Shown: in pieces, positions 24,717 through 40,471 of the stretch
Layout of the letters: each line of letters opens with the position of its first letter
Numbering within the stretch: the stretch's first letter is position 1
Origin: Thermodesulfobacteriota bacterium
Lineage (GTDB): Bacteria; Desulfobacterota_D; UBA1144; Nemesobacterales; CSP1-2
NCBI GenBank assembly: GCA_036397855.1
Contig: DASWID010000123.1
Coordinates: forward strand, 1 to 40,471
Length of the DNA stretch: 40,471 nucleotides
Reading direction: 5' to 3'
Notes under the pieces: model-generated
What the model was told of the DNA's origin: nothing
Database searches by the model: none
What the model saw: the letters and a program-made list of their open reading frames with translations, nothing else
Translations under genes and position numbers: made by a program

Positions 24717-24723
24717 TATCCAT

Positions 24724-24730
24724 CCTCCTT
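24724..24730 (-). promoter_or_regulatory. Strong ribosome binding site of the LysM-NlpC gene
   Basis: On the minus strand AAGGAGG ends 7 bases before the ATG at 24716. It is a full anti-16S match and fixes this start. Confidence 0.8.
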
Positions 24731-24906
24731 AGGTGGGGAGATTTTCAGAAATAAATGCCTACATCTCGAGTAAGTCAGTAATACACTCCAGTCCTGTCGT
24801 GTGTCTTGCGTTATGAAAAATGATTAATTTCAAAGAACGATTAAAAAATTTCGAGATTATACCTTAAACCTCAGTCAATTGTAAAGGTTTATCTGAAATA
24901 TCAATG

Positions 24907-24934
24907 TTTACGCCGTAATATGTTATGTTACAAT
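24907..24934 (+). promoter_or_regulatory. Candidate promoter for gltB
   Basis: TTTACG (24907-24912), a 16-bp spacer and TACAAT (24929-24934). The -10 has five matches and the -35 four. The leader to the gltB ATG would be about 135 nt. Confidence 0.3.
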
Positions 24935-25075
24935 CATAAAAGCCGGTGCGACTTGATTGTAGATTTCTTTGGCGGTACACTAGATTAGATATTATCGTTT
25001 TGACAGAAGGCAGTTTCGAATTACTAATTGTATTGAGTGTGTTTGTAAATTACTACAACGGAGTGTGAATCCAGC

Positions 25076-28000
25076 ATGCAAAATTTCCTAGATAGGAGTC
25101 GATACCAAAACTCGTTGTACAATCCATCTTATGAACATGATGCATGTGGTGTAGGTTTTATTGCTGACATATCTGGGAATAAGAGCCACAAAATAGTTGA
25201 GTTGGCGATTGAGGCTGTAGTCAACCTTACTCATCGTGGAGCTGTTGATGCAGATGCAAAAACAGGTGATGGCGCCGGAATTATCACTCAGATCCCAATA
25301 AAACTGTTTAAGAAGGAAATAAATAGGCTTGGATATCGTATTTCCAATGATACGGACTTTGCTGTTGGGATGGTTTTCCTTCCAAAGGACAATCCTGTTG
25401 CTCAGGAACGATGCAAAACGATTGTTGAAGAGGTGATTGAGCATAACGGTTTGATTCTATTTGGGTGGAGGCCCGTTCCGGTTGATAACTCGGTTCTCGG
25501 AGATAAGGCTGCTTCAACAAGGCCTGAAATCTTACAGGTCTTAATTGGGCGAAAGGGAAATTTGTCAGACGATGCATTTGAAAGAAAGCTTTACATAGTG
25601 AGAAAGGAAATCGAACAACACGTGGCTAGAAAGGGAAAAGAAGGATTTTATATACCTTCATTTTCTCATCGCACCATAGTTTACAAAGGGCTTTTCGTTG
25701 CACCACAGCTCAGGCGTTTTTATGTCGATCTACAGAATCCTGATTTTGAAACTTGTTTGGCGGTATTCCATCAGCGTTATAGCACAAATACTTTTCCTAA
25801 TTGGTTTCTTGCCCAACCCTTTAGAATGCTTGGACATAATGGTGAAATCAACACACTCCGGGGAAATCAAAACTGGACAAGGGCGAGGGAACCGGAACTT
25901 AAATCTCCCATTTGGAAAAAGAGGATTAAAAAGATCATCCCTATCATACAACCAGATGGTAGTGATTCAGCTAATTTGGATAATGTCCTTGAGTTGTTGG
26001 TAATGTCTGGACGCGATCTGAGACACGCAGTCACAATGTTAATACCAGAAGCATATGAGAATATGCAATTCATGAACCCTGCATTGAAGGGTTATTATGA
26101 ATATCATTCATGTATTTCCGAGCCTTGGGATGGTCCTGCCGCAATAGCTTTTACTGACGGAAGGATAGTGGGTTCTTCTCTTGATAGAAATGGACTTCGT
26201 CCGGCTCGTTATATTGTTACAGATGATAATGTCATTATCATGGGGTCAGAGGTCGGAATGATTGATATTGAGCCTTCCAAAGTGGTCGAAAAGGGTAGGC
26301 TTGGGCCGGGAAAGATTATAGCCGTAGACACCTTCAAAGGTGTCCTTTTGAAGAATGAAGAGGTCAAACAGCAATTAGCGAGCCAGAGGACTTATAATGA
26401 ATGGGTCCATAGGAATATGTTTGATACTGAATCTCTGAATCTGAGATCCAATTGGGAAGGCATAGGGCTTGTTGATGAGTCAGATTTAATTAAAGTTCAA
26501 AAGGTTTTTGGATATTCGCTAGAAGATTTGGAACGCATATTAGAACCAATGGTTATGAATGCCAAAGAACCCGTTGGATCGATGGGTGACGATACTCCAC
26601 TCGCGGTTTTATCGAGGAAACCGCGACTACTTTTCACCTATTTTAAACAGAGATTTGCACAGGTGACGAACCCTCCAATCGATTCTCTCAGAGAGCAGCT
26701 TGTGATGTCCCTTGTCACCAGAATTGGTTCCAGAGGGAGTATCCTTGAAGAACAGGAGAATCATGCGAAGTTAATAAGGTTCCATAGTCCGATCCTCACC
26801 AATGCGGAATTGAAATGGATTAAAGAATTGAAACATCCTGATATAAGTTCCACTGTAGTCAGCGCCGTATTCGATAGCAGTAAGGGACCAGAGGAAATGG
26901 AAATCGAGTTAGAAGAGATTTGTAATTTAGCGTACAAATCGGTAGAGAATGGAAAGAATGTTCTGATTTTAAGTGATCGAAATGTAGGGGTAGATAAGGC
27001 GCCGATTCCTTCACTCCTCGCAGTGGGTGCGATACATCATCATCTCATTCGTAAGGGAGTAAGAATGAGGGCGAGCATTGTGGTTGAAACCGCGGAGGTA
27101 AGGGAGGATCATCATTTCGCCTGTCTAATTGGTTTTGGAGCAAGCTGTATAAATCCATACTTGGCATTTGAGAGTGTTGCTAACATGGTGAGTAGAGGCA
27201 ACGGTATGGAAGAGGTTGGGCTCACAAAGGCCCTAGATAATTATAGGACAGCAGTCGAGAAAGGGATTCTGAAAATAATGTCAAAAATGGGCATATCAAC
27301 AGTAGCTAGCTATAGGGGCGCACAGATCTTTGAGGTTCTTGGGATAAATAAATCAGTTATAGACAAATATTTTTGTGGTGCTGAATCCAGAATTAGGGGT
27401 GTCGGGTTGAGGGATATTGCAATTGATGTGCTTCGATTTCATGAAGCTGCATTCGACACAGAGGAGACAGGTCTGAGAGAAGTAGGCATCTATAGATTCA
27501 GAAAGGATGGCGAATATCATGGAACTAACCCAACTGTTTTCAAGGCATTGCATAAAGCTGCGAGAAGTGGAAAATATGAAGATTATAAAAAGTACAGTGA
27601 GGCGGTGGATAGTCGTCCCCCCATGTCTCTCAGAGATCTATTAGTTTTTAAAAAGAGAAAGCCTATTCCTCTCCACATGGTTGAGCCCGTCGAGTCAATA
27701 GTAAAGCGTTTTTGTGCACCAGGAATGTCGTTTGGTGCCCTCAGTGCTGAAGCGCATGAAACTGTGGCGATTGGAATGAATAGAATTGGCGCTAAATCGA
27801 GTAGTGGAGAGGGGGGGGAAAATCCAGAAAGGTTTCACCGCCGTCCCAATGGGGATTGGCCGAATAGTCTCATTAAACAGGTTGCTTCCGGTAGGTTTGG
27901 GGTTACTCCTGAGTATCTTGCATCTGCTAAGGAGCTCGAAATCAAGATGGCCCAAGGATCAAAACCTGGTGAGGGAGGCCAGCTTCCGGGAGCAAAAGTG

Positions 28001-29671
28001 AGTGCTGAAATAGCGAGAGTTAGGCATTCGGTACCTGGTGTTTCTCTTATATCACCACCGCCCCACCATGATATATATAGTATTGAAGATCTATCTCAAT
28101 TAATCTATGACCTGAAGCATATAAATACGAGAGCAAAGGTAGCTGTGAAACTTGTGGCAGAAGCCGGTGTGGGAACGGTGGCAGCCGGGGTTGCCAAGGC
28201 CTATGCGGATGTAGTACATATAAGCGGGCATGAAGGAGGTACCGGGGCGTCACCCCTTGGCTCAATTAAGCATGCTGGTATTCCTTGGGAACTTGGACTT
28301 TCAGAGACTCAGCAGGTTCTTGTTCTAAATGACCTCAGGGGTCGTGTTGTTGTGAGAGTCGACGGTGGACTTAAAACAGGAAGAGACGTCGTAGTTGCCG
28401 CAATCCTTGGAGCGGAGGAATACGGATTTGGTACAGCTTCTCTTGTAGCAATAGGTTGTGTCATGGCTAGGCAGTGTCACCTCAATACTTGTCCTGTGGG
28501 CGTGGCTACGCAGAATCCCGAGCTCAGGGCAAAATTCCAAGGCTCTCCTGAACACCTTGTGAATTTTTTATTTGCAGTAGCACAGGAAGTAAGGGAAATA
28601 CTTTCATCCCTTGGGTTCAGGAAGCTTGATGAGATAATTGGCCGTACTGAACTTCTTGACCCTAGGTATGACGCCGAACTACCTAAAACTAAAGACATTG
28701 ATCTCAGTGCAGTATTAGCTGATCCTGATCCGAGTGGTGGTAAACCAAGACACCATATTAAAGAGAGAAATGATAGGGTAGATGCACCTCTCGACAACAT
28801 CATTCTTCAAGACGCAATGGATGCAATTGCAGGCAAGGAGCCGGTTAGAATAAGATCTGAGATAAGGAATATTAATCGTACGGTTGGTGCTATGGTTGCT
28901 GGCGAGATCGCGTTTAGATATGGAGACAAGGGACTCCCAGAAGGGACAATAGAGATGAGCTTTATAGGTAGTGCAGGACAGAGTTTCGGGGCTTTTTCGA
29001 TTAATGGTATGAGGTTAATGCTCGAGGGTGAAGCGAATGACTATGTTGGTAAAGGTATGCACGGCGGGGAAATTGTAATAAAGCCCCCGATTACCGCAAA
29101 GTTTCTTTCTCATAAGAATGTTATAATAGGCAATACAGTTATGTATGGTGCAACGGGTGGAGCGCTATACGCTGCCGGCTGTGCTGGAGAACGGTTCTGC
29201 GTGAGAAATAGCGGGGGTAATGCAGTGATAGAAGGCCTTGGTGATCATGGATGTGAGTACATGACTGGGGGTACCGTTGTAGTCCTAGGAGATACGGGAA
29301 GGAACTTTGGTGCCGGGATGACCGGTGGCCTTGCTTATGTTTTGGATGAGAATAATTCTATTCCTACGAAGCTTCATAGTCAGTTTGTAACTCATGAAAG
29401 GGTAATTGACCAAGAAGACATTGATATTATCAGATCCATGATTCGTAGGCATTATGAAGTTACTGAGAGCAGGAGATCGGGAGAAATTTTAAATAACTTT
29501 ACACATTACCTACCGCTTTTCTGGAAAGTGATACCATTGGAAAGTATTAAGCCATTAGAAGCTCAAAAAAAGACTACTAAGGATGAAGTAAAGGTTGCAG
29601 TACTGAAGGATAAATCTCAACCAGCTGTTGTATCTGTAACGAACAATAGAGTCTCCGATCTTAAGCACTAG
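25076..29671 (+). CDS. gltB: Glutamate synthase, large (alpha) subunit
   Basis: It makes two glutamates from glutamine and 2-oxoglutarate. The 1531-residue protein has a short propeptide and Cys24 (EHDACGVGF) as the N-terminal glutaminase nucleophile. Glutaminase blocks (HQRYSTNTFPNW, GHNGEINTLRGN), the central domain and the FMN-binding synthase domain (SSGEGGE, GRFGVTPEYL, PPPHHDIYSIEDL, HEGGTGASPLGSIKHAG) follow. The 3Fe-4S motif is CVMARQCHLNTCPVG, and the C-terminal GXGXG beta-helix is present. The segment after SSGEGGENPERF is short, as in NADPH-type enzymes, without the long ferredoxin loop of plant/cyanobacterial Fd-GOGAT. A gltD partner is therefore expected, yet none lies in this window. 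Start: GGAG lies 12 bases upstream, a loose spacing. Confidence 0.95.
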   Translation: MQNFLDRSRYQNSLYNPSYEHDACGVGFIADISGNKSHKIVELAIEAVVNLTHRGAVDADAKTGDGAGIITQIPIKLFKKEINRLGYRISNDTDFAVGMVFLPKDNPVAQERCKTIVEEVIEHNGLILFGWRPVPVDNSVLGDKAASTRPEILQVLIGRKGNLSDDAFERKLYIVRKEIEQHVARKGKEGFYIPSFSHRTIVYKGLFVAPQLRRFYVDLQNPDFETCLAVFHQRYSTNTFPNWFLAQPFRMLGHNGEINTLRGNQNWTRAREPELKSPIWKKRIKKIIPIIQPDGSDSANLDNVLELLVMSGRDLRHAVTMLIPEAYENMQFMNPALKGYYEYHSCISEPWDGPAAIAFTDGRIVGSSLDRNGLRPARYIVTDDNVIIMGSEVGMIDIEPSKVVEKGRLGPGKIIAVDTFKGVLLKNEEVKQQLASQRTYNEWVHRNMFDTESLNLRSNWEGIGLVDESDLIKVQKVFGYSLEDLERILEPMVMNAKEPVGSMGDDTPLAVLSRKPRLLFTYFKQRFAQVTNPPIDSLREQLVMSLVTRIGSRGSILEEQENHAKLIRFHSPILTNAELKWIKELKHPDISSTVVSAVFDSSKGPEEMEIELEEICNLAYKSVENGKNVLILSDRNVGVDKAPIPSLLAVGAIHHHLIRKGVRMRASIVVETAEVREDHHFACLIGFGASCINPYLAFESVANMVSRGNGMEEVGLTKALDNYRTAVEKGILKIMSKMGISTVASYRGAQIFEVLGINKSVIDKYFCGAESRIRGVGLRDIAIDVLRFHEAAFDTEETGLREVGIYRFRKDGEYHGTNPTVFKALHKAARSGKYEDYKKYSEAVDSRPPMSLRDLLVFKKRKPIPLHMVEPVESIVKRFCAPGMSFGALSAEAHETVAIGMNRIGAKSSSGEGGENPERFHRRPNGDWPNSLIKQVASGRFGVTPEYLASAKELEIKMAQGSKPGEGGQLPGAKVSAEIARVRHSVPGVSLISPPPHHDIYSIEDLSQLIYDLKHINTRAKVAVKLVAEAGVGTVAAGVAKAYADVVHISGHEGGTGASPLGSIKHAGIPWELGLSETQQVLVLNDLRGRVVVRVDGGLKTGRDVVVAAILGAEEYGFGTASLVAIGCVMARQCHLNTCPVGVATQNPELRAKFQGSPEHLVNFLFAVAQEVREILSSLGFRKLDEIIGRTELLDPRYDAELPKTKDIDLSAVLADPDPSGGKPRHHIKERNDRVDAPLDNIILQDAMDAIAGKEPVRIRSEIRNINRTVGAMVAGEIAFRYGDKGLPEGTIEMSFIGSAGQSFGAFSINGMRLMLEGEANDYVGKGMHGGEIVIKPPITAKFLSHKNVIIGNTVMYGATGGALYAAGCAGERFCVRNSGGNAVIEGLGDHGCEYMTGGTVVVLGDTGRNFGAGMTGGLAYVLDENNSIPTKLHSQFVTHERVIDQEDIDIIRSMIRRHYEVTESRRSGEILNNFTHYLPLFWKVIPLESIKPLEAQKKTTKDEVKVAVLKDKSQPAVVSVTNNRVSDLKH

Positions 29672-29761
29672 GTTAAGCTTGTTACGGGTTTTTTTCAGAG
29701 TTTCTCTGGCATTCGATGGCTTAAACTGTAATTAGAAATTTTAACAACTCTGATGATTAGT

Positions 29762-30301
29762 TTAAATGTTTACTTGTTGTTCTATGTAAGCTAATTTTTT
29801 CAAAACCCTTAAAATTTTTTCTACGCTTTCATCCATAGTCTCAATATTTGTTTCGACGGTTATCTCAGGCTGAAGTGGTTCTTCATAAGGGTCTGATATC
29901 CCAGTGAAATTAGTTATTTCCCCTGAAATTGCCCTTTTGTATAATCCCTTTACATCTCTCTTTATGCATTCCTCGATTGGACATTTGACATATATTTCAA
30001 CGAATCTGCCAATCTCCTTTCTTGCTTCGTCTCTTATTTCTCTATAAGGCGATATTGCGCATGTAATCGCAACTCCTCCACATCTTGTAATTATGTTTGC
30101 GACATATGAGATCCTCCTTATATTCTCATCCCTGTCCTCTTTGGAAAAACCTAATCCCTTGGATAATCTTAATCTTACTTCATCGCCGTCCAAAACTTCA
30201 GTATGGAATCCCATATGAGTTAATCTAGTTTCAACCATTCTCGCTAGGGTTGATTTTCCGGAACTGGGTAGCCCAGTAAACCATAGAGTATAACCTTTCA
30301 A
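29762..30301 (-). CDS. cysC: Adenylylsulfate (APS) kinase
   Basis: It phosphorylates adenylylsulfate to PAPS for sulfate assimilation or sulfation. The 179-residue single domain has the P-loop GLPSSGKST (10-18), the DGDEVR motif, GFSKEDRDENIRRI, the ISPYREIRDEAR mobile-lid segment and GLYKRAISGEI.NFTGISDPYEEP, all standard. No sulfate adenylyltransferase or sulfotransferase is in the window. It lies 98 bases after iorB on the same strand and may be read through from it. The fold is sure; whether PAPS feeds assimilation or sulfation here is open. Confidence 0.94.
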   Translation of the reverse strand: MKGYTLWFTGLPSSGKSTLARMVETRLTHMGFHTEVLDGDEVRLRLSKGLGFSKEDRDENIRRISYVANIITRCGGVAITCAISPYREIRDEARKEIGRFVEIYVKCPIEECIKRDVKGLYKRAISGEITNFTGISDPYEEPLQPEITVETNIETMDESVEKILRVLKKLAYIEQQVNI

Positions 30302-30399
30302 CGCTATTCTCCTTTTAATTGACTCCGTTTGTTCGGTGATTTAAATGCTGAAAAAGGTAATTCAGTATGAATTTTAATTATGTTCTATCCATATATGAT

Positions 30400-32001
30400 C
30401 TAAGCTGCTTTTTTCTTTAAAGTAGAATTGGCAAGTTTTTCTGCCTTTTCTATTCCATCCGTTGAAGCTGATATTAAATACAAGGATTTTTCACCTATCT
30501 CTAAAGTTAAGTTGAAGGCGTTATCAATTTCCTTCTCAGAATCTGCAATTGGATCTATTATTTTTTCTAAATATGTTTTTAAGGAATCCAATGTCCTTCT
30601 CCTTACTTTTCCATAACCCTTCACCATGCTCCCACTCTTTGCAACGAGGCATCCCAGTGCATAGTTTGTTTTGGAGTATCTCTCCACATATGCTGCATAT
30701 TTTTTAATGTATGAATGTTCTTTCCTGAATCTGTAGGAATAAGGCCTAAATTTTTTGAGTTTTGTTAGAAACCATAGCCTCAAGCTCCCCAAAAATGAAG
30801 ATGTCGTAGGAGATTGGGCAAAGGTTATCCTATTACTATTAGGCCAGATCTTTTTGAACAACCTATTATCTGTTAATTTTACGATCGGTGAGACCAAGAC
30901 ATTTGGTAGTAGTCCATAAATCTCTTCGGCATCCGGATTCAGGTAATCTATCACATGAAAAACTTGATCGTCACGCAATTGCATTTCCTTTTGTATGCGT
31001 TTAAATCTTTCTGGATTAATCTTAAGCTCGGCCACCCGAATTCCATCTTCATAACTCATCCAAAGGGCTAGGTTCTTTGCAAAAGCTTCGGTCAGCAAGA
31101 AGGAATTAGAACCCGAGTTTTTATCTATTTGGTAAATGTTCTTCAATGTATCTAAATAATTCTCTGCGTACCATATGTCTTGATAATCAGTAAGCCTATA
31201 TAGAGCCTCTGCGAGAATTTCTCTTAACCTTTCGGGATATTCATTTTCAACTCTTAATAATAAGGAGAATAAGCCCTCTCGTTTACCAGGATCTACCTTA
31301 GCTAATTTTTCGCTTTTGAGTTCATCCCACTCTAGGTCTGATTTCACTAATGAGATTTTGTATTTATTTGATTTGATGTAGTCCCAACCTATTCTAAAAG
31401 CTTTGATGTTATTTTCAACCGCTATCCCCACTTGTGATATAGCTTTGAGAAAGCTAGCTTCTGCGATCGGTAACGATGCAGATGTACCCAGGGCCCCTAA
31501 GAGAATTGCGTTTATAGCCAGTTCATCCATTCCGTACTCTTTCGCAAGTGCAAGGGCGTCTAGACCAACAAATCTTGAAGAGAATGCGTTTGCCAGCTTG
31601 TGCAGGTTCTCATCGGAGTAAATACCGTTTGAAAGGGGCATTTTTTCGAGAGTTGAGTAAATCCTATGTGTGCTAGATACGATGGTTGTTTTATCTGATC
31701 CGTATCCGAGCTCTAAAACTCTTCCGAGTTCCAAAAACTCCTGGGCCAAAATTATATCAATGTCTCCCGGCAAAGGGTATTGAGAAAAAATTATTGGTTT
31801 TGGATCGGGTTTTACCTTTGAATAAGCTTCGAGATAGTACATTGTTGACCCCCCACGCTGCGACAGCCCGGGAAGTCCAACTCCTTGCACCTCGAATCCC
31901 TCAATCAGAAATAGTTGGACGAGCCATTCTGTAAGAACCCCTCCACCTTGACCTCCGACTGCTGGAATTAGGATCTTTATTAAATCAATATTTCTATCCA
32001 T
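30400..32001 (-). CDS. iorB: Indolepyruvate:ferredoxin oxidoreductase, beta-type subunit with long C-terminal extension
   Basis: The gamma-like subunit of the 2-oxoacid oxidoreductase that oxidises arylpyruvates to aryl-acyl-CoA with ferredoxin. The N-terminal 190 residues have the family start (AVGGQGGGVLTEWLVQ, VGLPGLSQRGGST, DIDIILAQEFLELGR). About 340 more residues follow, which I take for the DUF6537-like extension seen in some proteobacterial IorB proteins. It has no Cys cluster of its own. The ATG at 32001 is preferred to the in-frame GTG at 32010; neither has a strong ribosome binding site. It follows iorA after about 80 bases, consistent with one operon. Confidence 0.85.
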   Translation of the reverse strand: MDRNIDLIKILIPAVGGQGGGVLTEWLVQLFLIEGFEVQGVGLPGLSQRGGSTMYYLEAYSKVKPDPKPIIFSQYPLPGDIDIILAQEFLELGRVLELGYGSDKTTIVSSTHRIYSTLEKMPLSNGIYSDENLHKLANAFSSRFVGLDALALAKEYGMDELAINAILLGALGTSASLPIAEASFLKAISQVGIAVENNIKAFRIGWDYIKSNKYKISLVKSDLEWDELKSEKLAKVDPGKREGLFSLLLRVENEYPERLREILAEALYRLTDYQDIWYAENYLDTLKNIYQIDKNSGSNSFLLTEAFAKNLALWMSYEDGIRVAELKINPERFKRIQKEMQLRDDQVFHVIDYLNPDAEEIYGLLPNVLVSPIVKLTDNRLFKKIWPNSNRITFAQSPTTSSFLGSLRLWFLTKLKKFRPYSYRFRKEHSYIKKYAAYVERYSKTNYALGCLVAKSGSMVKGYGKVRRRTLDSLKTYLEKIIDPIADSEKEIDNAFNLTLEIGEKSLYLISASTDGIEKAEKLANSTLKKKAA

Positions 32002-32082
32002 TATTTTCACACTTAAGATCAGGCAGATCGCCTTAAATCAATCTCAAGGTAGAAGGTACAGTCGATTATAACACTCTCGTAA

Positions 32083-34218
32083 TCAGTTCGCCAATACGTT
32101 TTTTGAAATTAAGTGTAGCAGGATGCCGTTAAGTTTGGATTCAAACTTATCAATTAATGAAGGGTTATTTATTATTTCTACCTTGTAAAACGATGGACAT
32201 AGAACAGCGGCATGAGCGATTTCTCCACATAGACCACATCCAACACAAGATTGCTCTATGTGTGCGATTGGATCATCCCTGAGGATCGACGGACTTTCCT
32301 TTAATGTAAGCGAGGGACAGCCATTATATCTCATACAGGAGTGGTCCCCCGTGCAGACATCAGGGTCCACACCCAGTTTTGCCTGCACCAATCTTTTTCC
32401 TGACTTTATCCTCTTGTCTATTAATTTTCTCTCTTTTCTGGTCTTCTCAAGTTGGCACTCGCCCTTTGAGATAATCACTCTAAGCCCTTCATTAGTTTCA
32501 TATGCTTTTCGAAGAACATTCAAGGATTCCTTTAAATCGTACGGATCAACCTTCTTTATCCATTTAACTCCCGCCCCCTTTAGGGCTTTTTCAATATCCA
32601 TGCCTACCCCTTCTTGCCTCATATTTTTTCCAGAAGCTGGATTTTCATGATGTCCTGTCATAGACGTCCAGAAATTTTCTAATATGATTAATATAGCATT
32701 CTGCTTATTATAAACGGCATTTGTTATGCTTGTTGTAAGACCACTGTGCCAGAAGGTTCCGTCACCCATAAAGGAAATTATTCTTTTGTTTGCCATCCGA
32801 GAAAGCGCTCCTGCGGAAGCAAGTCCGATGCCCATTCCTGTAATGGAATTACTAAGGTCAAATGGTGGGAGACCACTCATTGAATAGCAACCAATATCAG
32901 ATGCATAATACGATTTGCCGTAATCCTCTTCCAGTATTTTTATAGCTGTAAATATTGGCCTTTCGGGACAACCGGTGCAGAATACAGGGTTTCTCTTTGT
33001 AACAGGTTCGTCTAAAAAGTGGGCGGCCCTTTCTTTATGTTTTGCTACATATTCGCTTTGTTCTTGTATTTTCTGCTTTTCCTGTGTTGATAAGGTGTTT
33101 TTTATAATAAAGGTGCCGACTCCCTGTGTAATGCGATCAGGCGTATATTCTCCTTCTATGGGAAGAATGTCTTTGCCAAAAATCTCAAGATCGAGTCTTG
33201 ATCTTTGTGCTATAGACCTGATCTGCTCTTCAATAAGATTTGGCATCCCCTCTTCCACTATTAAGACTGCCTTTTTACCCTTAAGAAAGTTAATGATTTC
33301 ATCGGGAACAAGTGGATTAGTTACATTCAAATTCAATATAGGGAACCTACCTTCACCATTGAGATTAGATTCACCTAAATTGTATAAACATCTTATCAAA
33401 GAGTTAAATATCATCCCGTGGGTAATTATTCCTATACTTTTATCTTCGCCTTGAAAAACCTCATTCAAGTTGTTATCTACTATAAATTTTCTTGCAGCAG
33501 GGATCCGTTCATGGAACTTTTTTCTTTCGTGTTCGAAAGTATATGGCGGAAGGGGGATCTTATCCAGATCCGTAATCAGGTCGTCTAGTGGGTTTAATGT
33601 GCTGATTTTTGGCACAACGTTATTTTTACACTTAATCTTATTCCTTATGTGTGCAATCCTCGTGGATAGAAGAAACATCACTGGCATGTTGGAATATTCA
33701 GAGAGTCCAAATCCATATTCCACCATCTTTGCGACATGTTGCAGGTCTCCTCTCGGGTCGATCACCGCTAGGGTGGATTTTAATGCAAACGGAAGTGCTT
33801 TTTCTGCAACACAAGTGCTGTCACAACCATAGTCTTCTCCAACAACTATCATTGCACCACCGGTTACACCCGACGAGGATATATGGGCTAACGCATCGGA
33901 GGCGACATTAGTTCCAACTATTTTCCAGTTTGCAGACCCACGAATTGGGTAACTTATTGAAGCAGAAAGTAGAGCAGCCGCCGATGCTTCGTTACCCGAG
34001 CTATCAAAGTAGATTCCCCTATTTTTTAGTACTGGTTCGTAAGCGTCGGAAATTGCATCGATTATTCCAGCGGTTGGGGAGCCAGGGTATCCTCCTAGAT
34101 AGCTGACCCCGGATTGAAGGAATGCCTTTAATATTACCAGTGGGGTGTCACCATAGAGTGTTTTTCCTTCACCGTAGTTTAATTGTCCTATTATCTCTTT
34201 TGAATAACTACTTCCCAT
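32083..34218 (-). CDS. iorA: Indolepyruvate:ferredoxin oxidoreductase, alpha subunit (TPP and 4Fe-4S)
   Basis: The TPP-dependent catalytic subunit, about 711 residues. The N-terminal pyrimidine-binding domain has GGYPGSPTAGIIDAI. The TPP-binding block is FMGDGTFWHSGLTTSITNAVYNKQN. Two Fe-S motifs sit at the C terminus: an unusual first one, CTGDHSCMRYNGCP (Cys spacing 5 and 5), and a second, CVGCGLCGEIAHAAVLCP. This CTGDHSC type is the form I recall from proteobacterial IorA, which would act on phenylpyruvate and indolepyruvate in aromatic amino acid breakdown. AAGG sits 9 bases before the ATG at 34218; an in-frame TTG at 34233 gives five more residues. It leads the iorA-iorB pair. Confidence 0.92.
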   Translation of the reverse strand: MGSSYSKEIIGQLNYGEGKTLYGDTPLVILKAFLQSGVSYLGGYPGSPTAGIIDAISDAYEPVLKNRGIYFDSSGNEASAAALLSASISYPIRGSANWKIVGTNVASDALAHISSSGVTGGAMIVVGEDYGCDSTCVAEKALPFALKSTLAVIDPRGDLQHVAKMVEYGFGLSEYSNMPVMFLLSTRIAHIRNKIKCKNNVVPKISTLNPLDDLITDLDKIPLPPYTFEHERKKFHERIPAARKFIVDNNLNEVFQGEDKSIGIITHGMIFNSLIRCLYNLGESNLNGEGRFPILNLNVTNPLVPDEIINFLKGKKAVLIVEEGMPNLIEEQIRSIAQRSRLDLEIFGKDILPIEGEYTPDRITQGVGTFIIKNTLSTQEKQKIQEQSEYVAKHKERAAHFLDEPVTKRNPVFCTGCPERPIFTAIKILEEDYGKSYYASDIGCYSMSGLPPFDLSNSITGMGIGLASAGALSRMANKRIISFMGDGTFWHSGLTTSITNAVYNKQNAILIILENFWTSMTGHHENPASGKNMRQEGVGMDIEKALKGAGVKWIKKVDPYDLKESLNVLRKAYETNEGLRVIISKGECQLEKTRKERKLIDKRIKSGKRLVQAKLGVDPDVCTGDHSCMRYNGCPSLTLKESPSILRDDPIAHIEQSCVGCGLCGEIAHAAVLCPSFYKVEIINNPSLIDKFESKLNGILLHLISKNVLAN

Positions 34219-34321
34219 TTCTCGCCTTGCCAAATTGGCTATTATTGCCGATTCATAGTTCTATAGACTTTACCAGAAAATGGTTTGAGATACTAGGGTG
34301 ATTAATTCTCAAGGTTTTATC

Positions 34322-35023
34322 CTACATCTTTCGCTTTAATTGAGTCACAAAAATATCTGCCTGTCTTGTTGGTTCAGGTAGTCTAAAGCCAATTGTGCAT
34401 TTAAGCGTGACTTCTATTGATGTCTTCAAATCAATTTTATGCCCTATCGAAACAAATACCGGCTTTATCCCTCTTTTTGTTCTTAACACGGCTCCTATCG
34501 ATTCTCCACTATTTGAGTTTAATTCTGTCCAGTCCCCTTTCATATCTCCTGGCTCATCGAACTTACCATATAGTCTCGTTTTTGCTACTCCAATTGTCGG
34601 GATATCTAGTATCACCCCTACGTGGCTTGCGATCCCACACCTTCTGGGGTGAGCAATTCCCTGTCCGTCGACCATAAGTATGTCGGGCTTCCGTTTGAGT
34701 TGTTTCAAGGTTCCAATTATCGCTGGGCCTTCTCTAAAAGCAAGGAGTCCGGGAATGTAAGGAAATACTACCCTTACGATAGCAGAAGATCTTTCAATTT
34801 CTATAAGCTCAGGAAATGAGTACACTAAGATGCCACATATGTGTTGTTTTCCTCCATGAATTTGTGCGAGGTCTACTCCTGCAATCGTCTTTATTTCTCG
34901 AAAACCATTCTGTTTTATAACCCTTTTCTGGAGCTCCCGCTGAATTGCCAATGCCTCTTCATATAGGGGTTTATACTCAGGGTCGGTAATCCTTTCGAGA
35001 TTAATGAGCTCCATATTTTTCAC
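34322..35023 (-). CDS. nfi: Endonuclease V
   Basis: It nicks DNA (or RNA) one base 3' of deoxyinosine to start alternative excision repair. The 233-residue protein has Asp51 in AGVDLAQ, the YIPGLLAFREGP block (Tyr89 wedge, Glu98), LMVDGQGIAHPRRCG (Asp119) and GVAKTRLYG, so the DDE-type metal site is complete. It starts inside the preceding small gene (23-base overlap from the GTG at 35023, or 14 bases from the in-frame ATG at 35014), so the pair is probably coupled. The C-terminal ADIFVTQLKRKM tail is normal. Confidence 0.94.
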   Translation of the reverse strand: MKNMELINLERITDPEYKPLYEEALAIQRELQKRVIKQNGFREIKTIAGVDLAQIHGGKQHICGILVYSFPELIEIERSSAIVRVVFPYIPGLLAFREGPAIIGTLKQLKRKPDILMVDGQGIAHPRRCGIASHVGVILDIPTIGVAKTRLYGKFDEPGDMKGDWTELNSNSGESIGAVLRTKRGIKPVFVSIGHKIDLKTSIEVTLKCTIGFRLPEPTRQADIFVTQLKRKM

Positions 35024-35252
35024 TGATCAATCTTTTGAATCTAGGGGCATAAATAATTTCGAAGGCGTCTTCCTTGCCGGGAAAGAGCCTTAATGCGTAG
35101 TTTTTGACCTTAATATAATGCTCCAGGGCTTCTTCGCGAGTCATGTTCGCTTGGTATATCAAAGATAGGGTGAGATCAACCATAAACCTCAGTCTTCTGA
35201 TCTTTTTATTCTCTTCTTTTATTTCCAGGGGAGAGGGGTCTTGCAGTTTCAT
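35001..35252 (-). CDS. Small conserved protein of unknown function, coupled to nfi
   Basis: An 83-residue basic, mostly helical protein (KIRRLRFMVDLTLSLIYQ, TREEALEHYIKVKNYALRLFPGKEDAFEIIYAPRFKRLI). I recall similar short proteins in delta-proteobacterial-type genomes, with the pattern RxLRFxVDxTLxLI and YALxLFPxKExxxxxIYxxRFxR, without a known role. There is no signal peptide and no Cys. It starts 209 bases from gshB, which is divergent, and its end overlaps the start of nfi. It might assist or regulate the nuclease, but only position supports that. Confidence 0.75.
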   Translation of the reverse strand: MKLQDPSPLEIKEENKKIRRLRFMVDLTLSLIYQANMTREEALEHYIKVKNYALRLFPGKEDAFEIIYAPRFKRLISEKYGAH

Positions 35253-35461
35253 TTGTCAGAGTTTTTGAAAACGTGAGATATCAATTCATTATTATATATT
35301 TTGGAAGAGCATATTCAAAACTTATCGTTTTAAATTTTAAAATTCAGTGACTGCTACATCTAGCGATGGTAATAAGATTAACAAGCCAGGGATAACATTG
35401 CGAGATTACATATCTTTAGATTTTCTTGAACAACTTATAAGATTTAGATAGATTTAAGGGC

Positions 35462-36439
35462 ATGCGTCTCAGAATGGCCTTCATCATGGACCCGATTCAT
35501 ACAATTCATATCGACAAAGATACTACATTTGTCTTTATGCTCGAATCACAAGAGAGAGGGAATGAGATTTGGTATACTGAGCTTAAGGATATTTTCGTAA
35601 GAGACGGCAGGGTTTGGGCCACCGTTTCGGAGATCAGTTTAAAGCGGTCAGCCGATTTTTATAAATTGGGTAGAGTAGATACTGCTCCTCTTGAGAGCTT
35701 TCACGTTGTTTGGATGAGGAAGGACCCCCCCTTTAGTTTAGACTACCTATACGTCACATATTTTCTCAGCTTGATTGATCCCGGCTCAACTCTTGTTATC
35801 AATAATCCAAAGGGGATAAGGGAATCAAACGAGAAGTTATACACACTCTACTTTCCTGAGATTATTCCGCCGAGTCTTGTTGCTAAGGATATAGAATACT
35901 TAAGGGATTTTGTTAGTGAGGTTGGGGGGGAGATGGTTGTAAAACCACTAGACGGCCACGGTGGTGAGGGGGTTTTTTATGTGAGAGAGGGTGATAAAAA
36001 CGCTAACGTTATTCTTGAGACAGTCACTGAGTTTGGGAGTCGATATGTACTCGCTCAAAAGTTTATAAGAGAGGTTTCAGAGGGAGACAAGAGGGTTGTT
36101 CTATTGAACGGCGAACCCCTAGGAGCTGTTCTTAGGATTTCCAAACCTGGCGGTGAGTTTAGGTGCAACTTTCACTCAGGAGGAAGCCCCCATAAATCGA
36201 AGCTTGAGGAGAGAGATTTGCATATTTGCGAAACCTTGGCTCCAAGGTTAAGGGAAGATGGGCTCTATTTTGTAGGCATAGATATTGTTGGAGGGTATCT
36301 GACGGAAATAAACACAACCAGTCCGACAGGGGTACAAGAAATAAATAGACTAGATGAGACTAAGTTGGAAACACAGGTCTTAGATTTTGTTGAGGAAAAA
36401 TGTCAAAGGGCCAAACTTGAAATTGGTCATAAGAATTAA
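35462..36439 (+). CDS. gshB: Glutathione synthetase
   Basis: It joins gamma-glutamylcysteine and glycine with ATP, the last step of glutathione synthesis. The 325-residue ATP-grasp protein has the prokaryotic GshB start (AFIMDPIHTIHIDKDTTFVFMLES), VVWMRKDPPF, NNPKGIRESNEKLY, the ATP-binding lysine in VVKPLDGHGGEGV and the C-terminal GIDIVGGYLTEINTTSPTG. No gshA lies nearby. The ATG at 35462 is used; an internal ATG at 35474 fits the family start nearly as well. Glutathione production supports a Gram-negative host. Upstream DNA is AT-rich without a clear promoter. Confidence 0.95.
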   Translation: MRLRMAFIMDPIHTIHIDKDTTFVFMLESQERGNEIWYTELKDIFVRDGRVWATVSEISLKRSADFYKLGRVDTAPLESFHVVWMRKDPPFSLDYLYVTYFLSLIDPGSTLVINNPKGIRESNEKLYTLYFPEIIPPSLVAKDIEYLRDFVSEVGGEMVVKPLDGHGGEGVFYVREGDKNANVILETVTEFGSRYVLAQKFIREVSEGDKRVVLLNGEPLGAVLRISKPGGEFRCNFHSGGSPHKSKLEERDLHICETLAPRLREDGLYFVGIDIVGGYLTEINTTSPTGVQEINRLDETKLETQVLDFVEEKCQRAKLEIGHKN

Positions 36440-36568
36440 GGTCTAAGTCAAATCTATTCTTATGGATGTGATGACTGATCCACGGTGTTAAAATTATATT
36501 ACGGTCAATCAGCCGTAGAGCATTAATCAGAGTGGGTTTAGATGCTCCATAAATCAAGGGATAAATAG

Positions 36569-36859
36569 ATGAAAATCACAAGAGAAACTGTTTTACATGT
36601 TGCTGAACTGGCAAGGTTGGAATTCCAAGAGAATGAGCTTGATAAGTTTCGAGAACAACTAGAAAATATTCTTGGTTATATAGAAAATCTAAATAAGCTC
36701 GACACCTCCGGCGTAGAACCAACTTATCACGTATTAGAGATTAGCACTCCCCTAAGAAGGGATTTAGTTGAACCATGGCTTAGCGTCGATCAGGCTTTAG
36801 AGAACTCTCCGGATAGAGAACATGATTTCTTCGCCGTTCCCAAGGTAATAGAAGGCTAA
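36569..36859 (+). CDS. gatC: Asp-tRNA(Asn)/Glu-tRNA(Gln) amidotransferase subunit C
   Basis: The small subunit (96 residues) that wraps GatA and GatB in the tRNA-dependent amidotransferase. It has [35 protein letters not shown] in the helical first half and VEPTYHVL followed by LRRD and the C-terminal FFAVPKVIE, all family signatures. AAGGGA about 9 bases upstream serves as ribosome binding site. gatA follows after 10 bases; gatB is not in the window. Confidence 0.95.
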
Positions 36860-36869
36860 GGAGAAACAA

Positions 36870-38333
36870 ATGGATCTGCCGTTTCTTACGATACGAGAGG
36901 CTTCTGATTTAATAAGGGAGAGAGAAGTTTCCTCCGCTGAACTTACAAAATCCGTATTGAGTCGGATCGAGAAGCTTGATAGCAGACTGAATTCATATAT
37001 AACCGTTCTCAGAGATCAATCTATTAAGTCTGCAGAAGAGGCCGATAAACAGCTTGCTTCTGGTAATTATCAGAGTCCGCTACATGGGATACCAATTAGT
37101 ATCAAGGATATATTCGTCATGAAGGGTGTGCGAACGACTTGTGGCTCAAAGATTTTGGAGAGTTTTGTGTCTCCCTATGACTCGACTGTTACAAAAAAAC
37201 TCAAAAATGCGGGAGCAATAATATTGGGGAAAAGCAATATGGATGAGTTTGCCATGGGTTCATCTACTGAAACTTCATATTTTGGTCCTACAATGAATCC
37301 TTGGGATCTGGAAAGGGTTCCAGGAGGCTCTAGTGGGGGTTCTGCTTCTGCAGTTGCAGCTTCACTTTGCCTTGCTTCAGTCGGAACCGATACAGGTGGG
37401 TCAATCAGGCAGCCCGCAGCCCTCTGTGGCGTCGTCGGTATCAAACCTACTTATGGTAGGGTGAGCAGGTTTGGTATGATTGCGTTTGCATCTTCCTTGG
37501 ATCAGGGGGGGCCTATAGCAAAATCAGTCGAGGATGCCGCGATTATGCTGAGATTAATCTCAGGGGGTGATTTTAGGGATTCGACCTCCGTAAATATTTC
37601 TGTTCCGGATTACAGGGAATGCCTTAAAGATGATATTAAGGGTATAAGGATAGGGGTTCCTAAAGAATATTTTGTTAAGGGAATAGATGGCGAGGTTGAG
37701 CAGGCAATAAGAAATGCTATAGCATTGGTTGAAGATCTTGGTGGCGATGTAGAGGAGATTTCGCTTCCCCACACAGAGTACGCGGTTTCAGCTTACTACA
37801 TCATTGCCCCTTCCGAGGCCAGCTCAAACCTGGCAAGGTACGATGGGGTCAGGTATGGCCTTCGAATGACTGAAGGTAAGAACCTTATTGATATGTATAA
37901 GGAAACGAGAGCTGCCGGATTTGGTGACGAAGTTAAAAGAAGAATAATGATAGGTACTTACGGGCTATCTGCTGGATATTACGATGCCTACTATTTGAAG
38001 GCCCAGCGTGTTAGGACCCTCATAAAAAGGGATTTTGAGGAAGCCTTTAAAAGCGTCGACGTAATCGTGACACCGACATCCCCGGAACCTGCTTTTAGGA
38101 TCGGTGAGAAAAGTGACGATCCACTTAAGATGTATCTTTCAGATATTTTTACGATCCCCTGTAACCTCGCAGGGCTTCCCGGCATCTCCATCCCGTGTGG
38201 GTTTACGTCAAGTGGTCTTCCAATAGGTCTGCAAATCCTTGGGAAGCCATTCGATGAAGAAACAATATTACGGGTAGCCTATGCTTACGAACAACACACA
38301 AATTGGAGGGAAAGAAGAAAACCCCCAATTTAG
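36870..38333 (+). CDS. gatA: Asp-tRNA(Asn)/Glu-tRNA(Gln) amidotransferase subunit A
   Basis: The glutaminase subunit, which releases ammonia from glutamine and passes it to GatB to convert misacylated Glu-tRNA(Gln) or Asp-tRNA(Asn). The 487-residue amidase-signature protein has the Ser-cisSer-Lys triad at Lys79, Ser154 and Ser178 ([23 protein letters not shown]), the same numbers as in the Staphylococcus enzyme. The last half ([39 protein letters not shown]) is also standard. GGAG is the ribosome binding site. Its TAG lies 13 bases before the left inverted repeat of the GxxExxY unit. Confidence 0.97.
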
Positions 38334-38345
38334 AAGGAAACTTCC

Positions 38346-38370
38346 TGCCACCGAGAACACAGAGAATATA
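38346..38370 (+). repeat. Left inverted repeat of the GxxExxY unit
   Basis: The first 20 bases (TGCCACCGAGAACACAGAGA) are the exact reverse complement of 38857-38876. After one mismatch the arm continues for four more matching bases (TATA). Confidence 0.9.
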
Positions 38371-38490
38371 TAAGCCAAAATTTGACGTATAATTTATGTT
38401 AGTAAATTTTGATTCAACTCATAAATCGGGTCAGCGGGGTTTTTCCAAGGGTGTTTAATTTACAATTTAGCAAAGGCGGACACTGAGATA

Positions 38491-38856
38491 GTGGAGGATA
38501 GATTAACGCAAACTATTATTGGCGCGGCGATTGAAGTCCATCGTGTCTTAGGGCCAGGGCTTCTCGAATCTATTTATGAGTATGCTATTTGTCATGAATT
38601 AACGCTGCAAAATATTTTCTATGAAAGGCAAGTTGCGGTTGATGTGGTATATAAAGGGAACGTTATTCATGGCCAAAGATTGGATTTACTGGTTGGAAAT
38701 GAAGTCATAGTTGAAATCAAGTCTTTGAGTGCCCTACCGGATGTAGCGACCGCCCAAGTGCTGTCATATTTAAAGTCCACTGGTTTGAAGCGAGCATTAC
38801 TCATAAATTTTGGTGAAAGAAGATTGGTTGATGGTATAAAAAGAATATCTCTATAA
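38491..38856 (+). CDS. GxxExxY protein (PD-(D/E)XK nuclease-like)
   Basis: A 121-residue protein of the GxxExxY family, named for the motif seen here as GLLESIY (23-29). The sequence TQTIIGAAIEVHRVLGPG before it is also typical. Asp65 and Glu75-Ile-Lys77 (DLLVGNEVIVEIK) form the D...ExK signature of PD-(D/E)XK nuclease folds, so a DNA- or RNA-cutting activity is plausible though unproven for the family. It starts at GTG with a weak ribosome binding site and its stop codon lies inside the right inverted repeat. These genes are patchily distributed and often sit near repeats, which points to horizontal movement. Confidence 0.88.
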   Translation: MEDRLTQTIIGAAIEVHRVLGPGLLESIYEYAICHELTLQNIFYERQVAVDVVYKGNVIHGQRLDLLVGNEVIVEIKSLSALPDVATAQVLSYLKSTGLKRALLINFGERRLVDGIKRISL

Positions 38857-38876
38857 TCTCTGTGTTCTCGGTGGCA
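38852..38876 (-). repeat. Right inverted repeat of the GxxExxY unit
   Basis: Inverted copy of 38346-38370 with one mismatch in 25. Its inner end covers the TAA of the GxxExxY gene, and its outer end lies 5 bases before the ribosome binding site of the next gene. Confidence 0.9.
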
Positions 38877-38892
38877 AAAAAGGGAGGTGAAA

Positions 38893-39069
38893 ATGTCGGA
38901 AAAGAAAAAGGTGTGTATGATTTGTGGAAAGCCGTCAGAGGTTTCAATCTGCGATGCGTGCAAGGCCCAAATTCAGGGAGAGGCCCTGGACAAGAAACGA
39001 AAGATTGAAAAACAAGTTAGAGTTGGTCCCGAGGTTGAGAAGGAAAAAATAATTAAGCATAAGAAATGA
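38893..39069 (+). CDS. Small zinc-ribbon protein of unknown function
   Basis: A 58-residue protein with two CxxC pairs (CMIC near residues 8-11 and CDAC near 22-25), which should bind one zinc, and a highly charged Lys/Glu-rich tail (KKRKIEKQVRVGPEVEKEKIIKHKK). The ATG at 38893 is chosen over an in-frame GTG at 38887 because GGGAGG (38882-38887) stands 5 bases before it; the GTG would fall inside that site. I recall similar short proteins in related genomes, with no function. The strong ribosome binding site argues for a real gene. Confidence 0.75.
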   Translation: MSEKKKVCMICGKPSEVSICDACKAQIQGEALDKKRKIEKQVRVGPEVEKEKIIKHKK

Positions 39070-39172
39070 TTCAATATAATTTTCAAGAATTTAATTCTGA
39101 GAATTCATTTAAACTTAAGACCACAGGTTTTGGTAAACTCACGATAAAAGTGGAATGGATAGTCTGGTTAAA

Positions 39173-39206
39173 ACCGTTCACCCGGAGCCTGTCGAAGGGT
39201 GGTGTT
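39173..39206. repeat. REP-like palindromic element (CCTGTCGAAGGGTG type)
   Basis: ACCGTTCACCC, GGAGCCTGTCGAA and GGGTGGTGTT follow in order, with CACCC and GGGTG able to pair. The core resembles the dispersed CTGTCGAAGGGTGAACGG-type intergenic palindrome known from many bacterial genomes. The right arm has diverged here (GGTGTT instead of GAACGG). Confidence 0.6.
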
Positions 39207-39306
39207 ACGTCCTCTACTCAGGAAGTGGGATCTATGCTTCCATGTGTAAATTAATAATCCTAGATTGGAGTATGGGTTCTACGCAAGAAGTACACTCAAA
39301 TCAATC

Positions 39307-39328
39307 CCTTTTCCTTTTAAGGGGAAGG
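39307..39328. repeat. Short perfect-pairing hairpin element
   Basis: CCTTTTCCTT and AAGGGGAAGG form a 10-bp stem (two G-U pairs) around TT, followed by GTGAGGATGGGG. It is typical of a dispersed REP-like repeat. It lies between convergent genes, so it may also stop transcription, though no T-run follows on the plus strand. Confidence 0.5.
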
Positions 39329-39377
39329 TGAGGATGGGGTGCGAGATCAAAGTAATAATAAAGAGTGGTATTTGATT

Positions 39378-40217
39378 CTAGGAATCCTTCCAAATCCTCA
39401 ATACTTCCTTATAGACTTTATTTCTTGGGAGTTTTAACTTCAGTGTAAGTTCTTCAACCGTATCCTTTAAACTAAAGCCTCCTTCTCTATGCATTCTGAT
39501 TTCTTTCTCTAGTTCATCAATTGATGCCTCTTCATTCATATCCTTATTGCCCTCAACGACTACTGTAAATTCGCCTTTTATTACTTTTTTCTTCTTCAAA
39601 ATCTGAATCACGCTTGAAATCTTTCCTCTAATCGTTTCTTCGAACATTTTGGTAAGTTCCCTACTTAGAGAAATGTGTCTATCTCCTAGAATTTCAACCG
39701 TATCGTTTAGTGTTTCTAAAACTCGTCTTGGTGATTCGTAGAAAACAAATGCGTGCCTGACCTCCTGAATTTCTCTGAGAAATTCTCTTCGTTTACTTTT
39801 TATTTTTGGAATGAAACCAAAGAAGCTAAAACTCGATGTCGGAAGGCCTGATATACTTATTGCTGCTATTGCAGCCGTAGGCCCTGGGATACTAATCACG
39901 TCGATTTCATTTTCAGAGGCAATTTTGACGAGTCTAAATCCTGGGTCAGAGATGCCCGGGGTGCCGGCATCAGAAACCAAAGCGATGTTCTTGCCAGCTC
40001 TTAATTGCCTTAGGAGTTCTCGTGCTTTCTCCTTCTCATTGTGCTCATGATAGCTCGTAAGGGGTTTCTTGATCTCATAGTGAGAAAGGAGCTTTCGGGT
40101 ATTTCTAGTGTCTTCACAAGCGATGAGATCGACTTTTTTCAGAATCCTGATGGCCCTTAGCGATATATCCTCAAGATTCCCAATGGGCGTTGATACAACA
40201 TAAAGCTTTCCTTTCAT
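39378..40217 (-). CDS. rsmI: 16S rRNA (cytidine1402-2'-O)-methyltransferase
   Basis: It 2'-O-methylates C1402 in the decoding centre of 16S rRNA. The tetrapyrrole-methylase fold is clear: KLYVVSTPIGNLEDISLRA at the start, ACEDTRNTRKLLSHY, VSDAGTPGISDPG, SIPGPTAAIAAISISGLPT and FYESPRRVLETL. The ATG at 40217 (279 residues) is chosen because the family begins right there and AGGA lies 5 bases upstream. The longer frame from 40244 adds only MHDARCRMQ, which is the translation of a heptanucleotide repeat. A truncated tRNA-Ser lies just upstream on the same strand. Confidence 0.95.
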   Translation of the reverse strand: MKGKLYVVSTPIGNLEDISLRAIRILKKVDLIACEDTRNTRKLLSHYEIKKPLTSYHEHNEKEKARELLRQLRAGKNIALVSDAGTPGISDPGFRLVKIASENEIDVISIPGPTAAIAAISISGLPTSSFSFFGFIPKIKSKRREFLREIQEVRHAFVFYESPRRVLETLNDTVEILGDRHISLSRELTKMFEETIRGKISSVIQILKKKKVIKGEFTVVVEGNKDMNEEASIDELEKEIRMHREGGFSLKDTVEELTLKLKLPRNKVYKEVLRIWKDS

Positions 40218-40220
40218 TTG

Positions 40221-40248
40221 CATCCTGCATCGTGCATCATGCATCGTG
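40221..40248. repeat. Heptanucleotide tandem repeat (CATCNTG x4)
   Basis: Four perfect 7-base units differing only at one position (CATCCTG, CATCGTG, CATCATG, CATCGTG) lie between the rsmI start and the tRNA fragment. On the minus strand they contain extra ATG codons and the AGGA used as ribosome binding site. Confidence 0.85.
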
Positions 40249-40251
40249 ATA

Positions 40252-40308
40252 TGGCGGAGGGCGAGGGATTCGAACCCCCAAGTCCTTGCGGACGCCTGTT
40301 TTCAAGAC
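40252..40308 (-). pseudogene. tRNA-Ser(UGA), 3' half only
   Basis: On the minus strand the sequence from the anticodon loop (CTTGAAA, anticodon TGA at 40304-40302) to the encoded CCA (40254-40252) is intact. It has the 3' anticodon strand ACAGG and a long serine-type variable arm (GTCC-GCAA-GGAC). The T-arm GGGGG-TTCGAAT-CCCTC, 3' acceptor strand GCCCTCC and discriminator G follow. The 5' side should read CCTGT before the loop but reads TAGGT. No D-arm or 5' acceptor strand follows, so the gene is cut at the anticodon stem and cannot make a tRNA as it stands. Integration scar and assembly join are both possible. Confidence 0.8.
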
Positions 40309-40471
40309 CTATTGAGTGCATATTCGTAACATTCCAGAATCGTTAAAATATTTCTAATTCACCTTTAATAAACGATTTCCATCTATTCCATATGGTCTAT
40401 TGATTCTGTATGGTGGCAAGAATTATGGATGGTTCTTAGAAAATGCTTAGAAAGGATTGACTTTAATGAAT
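40309..40471. other. Unassigned DNA beyond the tRNA break
   Basis: These AT-rich bases replace the expected 5' half of the tRNA. I see no gene, promoter or repeat in them before the window ends. Confidence 0.4.

Follow-up and report, generated by a model that had tools for sequence, protein, structure and literature searches.

What does half of a tRNA gene at the end of a contig record? The window analysed here, 40,471 bases long, is the whole of contig C123 from a Dadabacteria-related MAG (3.1 Mb, 195 contigs, estimated contamination 2.59%), and position 40471 is the end of that contig. Close to it lies the 3' half of a tRNA-Ser(UGA) gene, which the initial annotation attributed to integration by a tyrosine integrase, with an element lying to the right, or else to faulty assembly. 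We consider it very likely that the contig end is the attR of a tyrosine-recombinase island inserted in the anticodon loop of tRNA-Ser(UGA), upstream of rsmI, and that this island belongs to a Ca. Dadabacteria family whose terminal sequence, here called the arm, is used at several tRNA genes. The relevant features are collected in Table 1, where G followed by digits designates other genomes compared; in the text, C125, C161, C86, C101 and C184 are contigs of the window's own genome.

Table 1. Features at the right end of the window, and distances separating intact tRNA genes from their displaced halves in related genomes
Feature	Location	Strand	Remarks
Presumed rsmI (16S rRNA 2'-O-methyltransferase), complete	39378..40217	-	ORF; ancestral downstream neighbour of tRNA-Ser(UGA)
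tRNA-Ser(UGA) 3' half, read as displaced att fragment (attR)	40252..40309	-	tRNA positions 29 to CCA; 58 nt
Core (putative crossover) region GGTCTTGAAAACA	40297..40309	-	anticodon loop and adjacent stem; attL/attR identity boundary
Anticodon TGA of the tRNA-Ser half	40302-40304	-	
Element right end (arm), ~150 bp, conserved, AT-rich	40310..40457	-	93% to G023, 88% to G027, 83% to G008
Arm-type repeat TCTAAG, second	40435..40440	-	11 bp from first
Arm-type repeat TCTAAG, first (outer)	40446..40451	-	motif YCWAAGN5YCWAAG found at element ends
Final 14 bp of contig, presumed start of element cargo	40458..40471	.	beyond conserved arm
Intact tRNA upstream of half, G013 Ser	4.3 kb		
Intact tRNA upstream of half, G019 Ser	20 kb		
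Intact tRNA upstream of half, G019 Arg(CCU)	4.3 kb		
Intact tRNA upstream of half, G019 Phe	2.0 kb		
Intact tRNA upstream of half, G008 Phe	7.5 kb		
Intact tRNA upstream of half, G008 Arg(UCU)	24.8 kb		
Intact tRNA upstream of half, G008 Ser	62 kb		tandem

The tRNA half is present as first described, from the anticodon arm to the CCA end, and ARAGORN finds no complete tRNA in the window. Two details needed correction. The break, originally placed at 40308/40309, falls at 40309/40310, since identity with the intact tRNA-Ser(UGA) gene of the same genome (C125:598-683) extends to 40309. Nor is the half flawless: it is 96.6% identical to the C125 copy, differing at 2 of 58 positions, and one of the changes (CAGG for CCGG) would leave the anticodon stem mispaired at G29.A41. 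From an in silico fusion of the C125 5' half with the window 3' half, ARAGORN calls a tRNA-Ser(tga) with one anticodon-stem mismatch. We read the two changes as drift in a copy that would no longer be functional. Thirty-four bp downstream of the half, on the same strand, is an ORF that we take to be rsmI, judging from its sequence and from established knowledge of the family. Contig C125 starts within rsmI and then runs through its intact tRNA gene; the first 655 bp are 93% identical to window positions 39662-40309, and the alignment stops exactly at the tRNA break. The order of intact tRNA-Ser followed by rsmI is found in C125, G004, G001 and others and must therefore be ancestral, the window having lost the 5' half; these three represent the orthologous empty site, C125 being a near-empty one. 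Between the tRNA half and rsmI (40219-40250) lies a tandem repeat of the 'GCATCATGCATCGTGCATCCTGCATC' type, a lineage-specific dispersed intergenic repeat with about 20 further occurrences across this genome and genomes of the same family.

The proposal that foreign AT-rich DNA had replaced the 5' half was borne out: the flank is a conserved element end, and in other genomes it meets the same tRNA half at the identical base. The right-end 163 bp, with or without the tRNA half, match at several places in genomes of family f3. Arm and half match across the break as a single unit in G023 (94%, query 15-222), G027 (90%), G008 (87% and 84%) and also G013. The junctions of G013, G023 and G027 occupy one orthologous site and are thus not fully independent. 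Apart from the arm, which is closest to family f3, contig C123 belongs to family f1. Relative to G023, the arm is 93% identical and the adjacent rsmI 68%, a disparity that vertical descent hardly accounts for and that argues for horizontal transfer of the element. Alignment of 13 junctions delineates an arm of about 150 bp whose outer end, TTTCTAAGCATTTTCTAAGAACCATCCATAATTCTTG, is strongly conserved; at the break, GG and one T are invariant, and the Arg and Phe junctions contain the core equivalents GGACTTCTAATCC, GGATTCCTAATCC and GGACTGAAAATCC. No RNA fold emerged from the 13 aligned ends with RNAalifold, which suggests that the arm is probably a DNA site. Of 44 genomes of the order, 9 gave a match to a sequence-only model of the arm (R1), of which the window, scoring 134.7 bits, is itself a row; the 14 genomes sampled from the class's other family gave none. 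A pattern scan of genome contigs returned three loci: two in relatives, Ca. Dadabacteria RBC041 (G013) and RIFCSPHIGHO2_12_FULL_53_21 (G027), and one, possibly a chance match, in a Zambryskibacteria contig. Within the G027 island, a stretch corresponding to the first 65 bp of the arm alone (G027:C126:21948-22014) is 97% identical to that of the window, and no tRNA half follows it.

The arm is not confined to tRNA-Ser(UGA). It is fused to 3' halves of Arg(UCU), Arg(CCU) and Phe(GAA) genes as well, and every cut is at the anticodon loop. In the window's own genome, positions 1-200 of contig C161 hold a second, diverged arm fused to an apparent tRNA-Arg(ACG) 3' half (isoacceptor assigned by eye), indicating that the lineage does harbour elements of this kind. 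C161 starts about 10 bp outside its arm and C123 ends 14 bp outside its own; contigs may break at the outer edge of the arm because the interior of the element varies between cells. In relatives (G008, G013 and G019), an intact tRNA gene in the same orientation stands at the opposite end of the element, often 2-62 kb upstream of its half (Table 1). The longest of these intervals, at G008 tRNA-Ser, is occupied by a tandem series of modules (about 10, 23 and 28 kb); halves lie at approximately 65.3 and 41.9 kb, and at 14.8 kb the gene adjoining rsmI has a decayed arm at its side.

Both ends of the elements are marked by pairs of 6-bp repeats with a period of 11 bp. Left arms bearing the same kind of paired repeat lie 45-160 bp downstream of most intact tRNAs (for instance TCTAAGTATTTTCTAAG at Ser and CCAAAGAATAGCCAAAG at Arg(CCU)), and elements of one target class generally have matching repeats at their two ends. 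The pattern YCWAAGN5YCWAAGAAYNANYC matched 13 times in six whole genomes, always at element ends, and its reversed control matched nowhere in the same genomes. Paired half-sites 11 bp apart, or one helical turn, are what the arm-binding domains of tyrosine integrases recognise, and by this analogy the repeats look typical of integrase arm sites.

Integrases are indeed found at three islands. They are tyrosine integrases of about 347-390 aa (PF00589 with SAM-like N-terminal domains), whose genes lie immediately beyond the left arm at tRNA-Arg(CCU) in G008, tRNA-Arg(UCU) in G019 and tRNA-Arg(UCG) in G004, and they are mutually about 65% identical; the G019 enzyme has 356 aa and that of G008 388 aa. 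Together with the recurrent junctions and the upstream intact tRNAs, these genes beside intact tRNA-Arg genes support the original suggestion that a tyrosine integrase left the scar and that an element lies to its right. Six complete islands of relatives (G013 Ser, G008 Ser, G019 Ser, G019 Arg(CCU), G019 Phe and G008 Arg(UCU)) retain both attL and attR and have no PF00589 match. Integrase-free islands carry genes for nitrate assimilation (nitrite reductase, molybdopterin oxidoreductase, MoeA), polysaccharide synthesis, AllG, an amidohydrolase, a kinase, ABC exporters and a TetR-hydrolase pair. A 3.5-kb glycosyltransferase/GH130 cassette common to the G008 Phe and G019 Arg(CCU) islands, 85% identical between them, implies that cargo moves between tRNA targets. 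A prophage or phage-satellite nature is not supported: the arm pattern has no match in viral contigs, where the integrase has just two distant relatives (31-36% identity). Integrases encoded directly 5' of the intact tRNA-Ser(UGA) that precedes rsmI in two other genomes (G004:C46:1457-2398 and G031:C62:5213-6145) are 34-35% identical to the Arg-type enzyme and possibly belong to a different type of island with the opposite geometry.

We picture the arrangement as arising in the following way. An incoming circle would carry its own tRNA 3' half and two arms, each with paired, 11-bp-spaced putative integrase sites. Crossover within the 7-nt anticodon loop would restore a complete tRNA gene on the far (left) side, and the 3' half that the host had before, no longer functional, would be stranded beside rsmI. 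Within one Ca. Dadabacteria family, an arm of this kind is used at tRNA-Ser(UGA), Arg(UCU), Arg(CCU), Arg(ACG) and Phe(GAA); some members encode an integrase and others are pure cargo. We infer such a recombination event for the window, and with it an integrase acting at tRNA-Ser and an element to the right of 40471 that may be mobile at present. Members lacking an integrase have probably either decayed, remaining cis-mobilizable, or been moved by a related integrase located elsewhere. The simplest account would be decay to cis-mobilizable elements accompanied by tandem accretion; mobilisation in trans is possible. A broader version of the latter idea would have integrase-free cassettes, each a tRNA 3' half with a standard arm, shuttled in trans among isoacceptor anticodon loops and between families by a few integrases resident at tRNA-Arg, as a modular cargo system and a tRNA-based analogue of the integron. 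We regard this version as doubtful. The question of whether integrase-free tRNA cassettes move in trans is testable.

Several observations count against the island interpretation. Nothing of the element's interior is visible on C123 beyond 14 bp past the arm. No complete Ser island examined has an integrase on the element side of tRNA-Ser. The only intact tRNA-Ser(UGA) found in the window's genome, on C125, directly precedes rsmI' with no element between. The search that had been advised, for an intact tRNA-Ser(UGA) with an adjacent integrase, yielded the tRNA on C125 and no integrase beside tRNA-Ser in this genome, C123 stopping where it does. Integrases encoded on C86, C101 and C184 were considered as the Ser enzyme and rejected, as none has an arm repeat nearby. 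That only half a gene is seen, on a contig whose sole integrase gene is XerC, would also suit an ordinary tRNA pseudogene or deletion, or a tRNA split by an intron, without any mobile element. Such explanations can hardly be entertained, given that the same foreign flank adjoins the halves of five tRNAs at the same loop position and that no Rfam family, introns included, matches at the gathering threshold anywhere in the 40,471-base window.

Misassembly deserves closer consideration, having been named initially as the main alternative. The arm of a co-occurring relative, for example of genus g8, might have been mis-joined to the resident rsmI through a near-identical tRNA 3' half. The halves are 96-98% identical between genomes, the affinities of the arm (f3) and of the remaining contig (f1) differ, and the break, as had been noted, is near the end of the sequence (162 bp away), although what ends there is the contig itself and not merely the window. 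A chimera is nevertheless unlikely, since the same junction of arm and tRNA half recurs in other genomes. The half also has private changes, including the stem-breaking A41, which is absent from the other junctions and from the intact tRNA-Ser genes read and is expected of a displaced relic; the flanking rsmI is likewise a distinct haplotype (93%); and C161 supplies a different second arm with its tRNA-Arg(ACG) half in the same genome. A further possibility, which is a sub-case of the island interpretation and does not exclude it, is that C123 and C125 bound a single insertion, with C125, which has an intact tRNA-Ser and a 5' portion of an rsmI copy, being attL and the element containing a foreign rsmI fragment. 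C125 does break within rsmI, and the 15.7 kb of the window searched (24000-39660) has no second copy at about 93% in the bin, the end of C123 being the sole exception; for this reason we also dropped the idea that the whole of C123 is a strain duplicate. We still judge a single insertion improbable: no other element examined has rsmI beside its left end, and mixed strains in the bin, given its estimated contamination, are a simpler source of two rsmI haplotypes.

Islands that sit in an anticodon loop and have displaced a 3' tRNA fragment are common, and their mechanism is well known; of those catalogued in Islander, 2083 have an anticodon-centred site and 3760 a 3' fragment (PMC4383910). The window displays this signature, a displaced 3' fragment broken in the anticodon loop. 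Its family resembles Islander type A islands (PMC4383910, Williams 2002) in the fragment at the far end, the anticodon-loop crossover, the tyrosine integrase, the rebuilt tRNA and occasional tandem arrays, but differs in having one 150-bp arm over at least five tRNA targets and in that most complete members were found without an integrase. In the latter respect it recalls CIMEs, reviewed with tandem accretion in PMC5704250, and the tandem islands of Dehalococcoides at ssrA (PMC3146451), att-bounded cargo modules without integration genes that are stacked as at G008 tRNA-Ser. Unlike these, however, the Dadabacteria family uses several tRNA targets per genome and no conjugation module was noticed in it, and the Dehalococcoides islands use a serine recombinase. 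Prochlorococcus tycheposons, as outlined second-hand in PMC10872708 and PMC11389934, share the location of cargo islands at tRNA genes, the tyrosine recombinase and nutrient cargo including nitrate assimilation, whereas the targets stated there do not include tRNA-Ser or Arg(UCU/CCU) with the Dadabacteria arm. Integrons and CALIN (PMC11389934) similarly have integrase-free cassettes with common recombination sites, plausibly moved in trans. Membership in that group was rejected: in place of structured sites of the attC type, the Dadabacteria sites are tRNA halves and double-stranded arm repeats, with no consensus fold in the 13 aligned ends. The literature searched held no description of mobile islands in Dadabacteria, and the family is apparently undescribed. 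Its novelty lies in an arm common to several isoacceptors and in the many integrase-free members, and the sequence-defined ends (R1 and the arm pattern) offer a way to map islands and their cargo of nitrate assimilation, polysaccharide and transporter genes in uncultured bacteria.

Loci in two relatives show other irregularities around tRNA genes. Past the tRNA-Arg halves of G008 (L062, 9757-10146, and L063, 9341-9658) are direct repeats containing a degenerate tRNA-like stretch (GGCGTCCGGTTCCTCCT...GGAACCGTTCCCTCCGGGCGC). At G001:C20 (L135, ~1330-1480), the 5' half of a tRNA-Pro-like gene is broken at the anticodon and an arm-like TTTCTAACCTATTTCTAACC adjoins a related integrase; this locus is the reverse case, a target tRNA without rebuilding.
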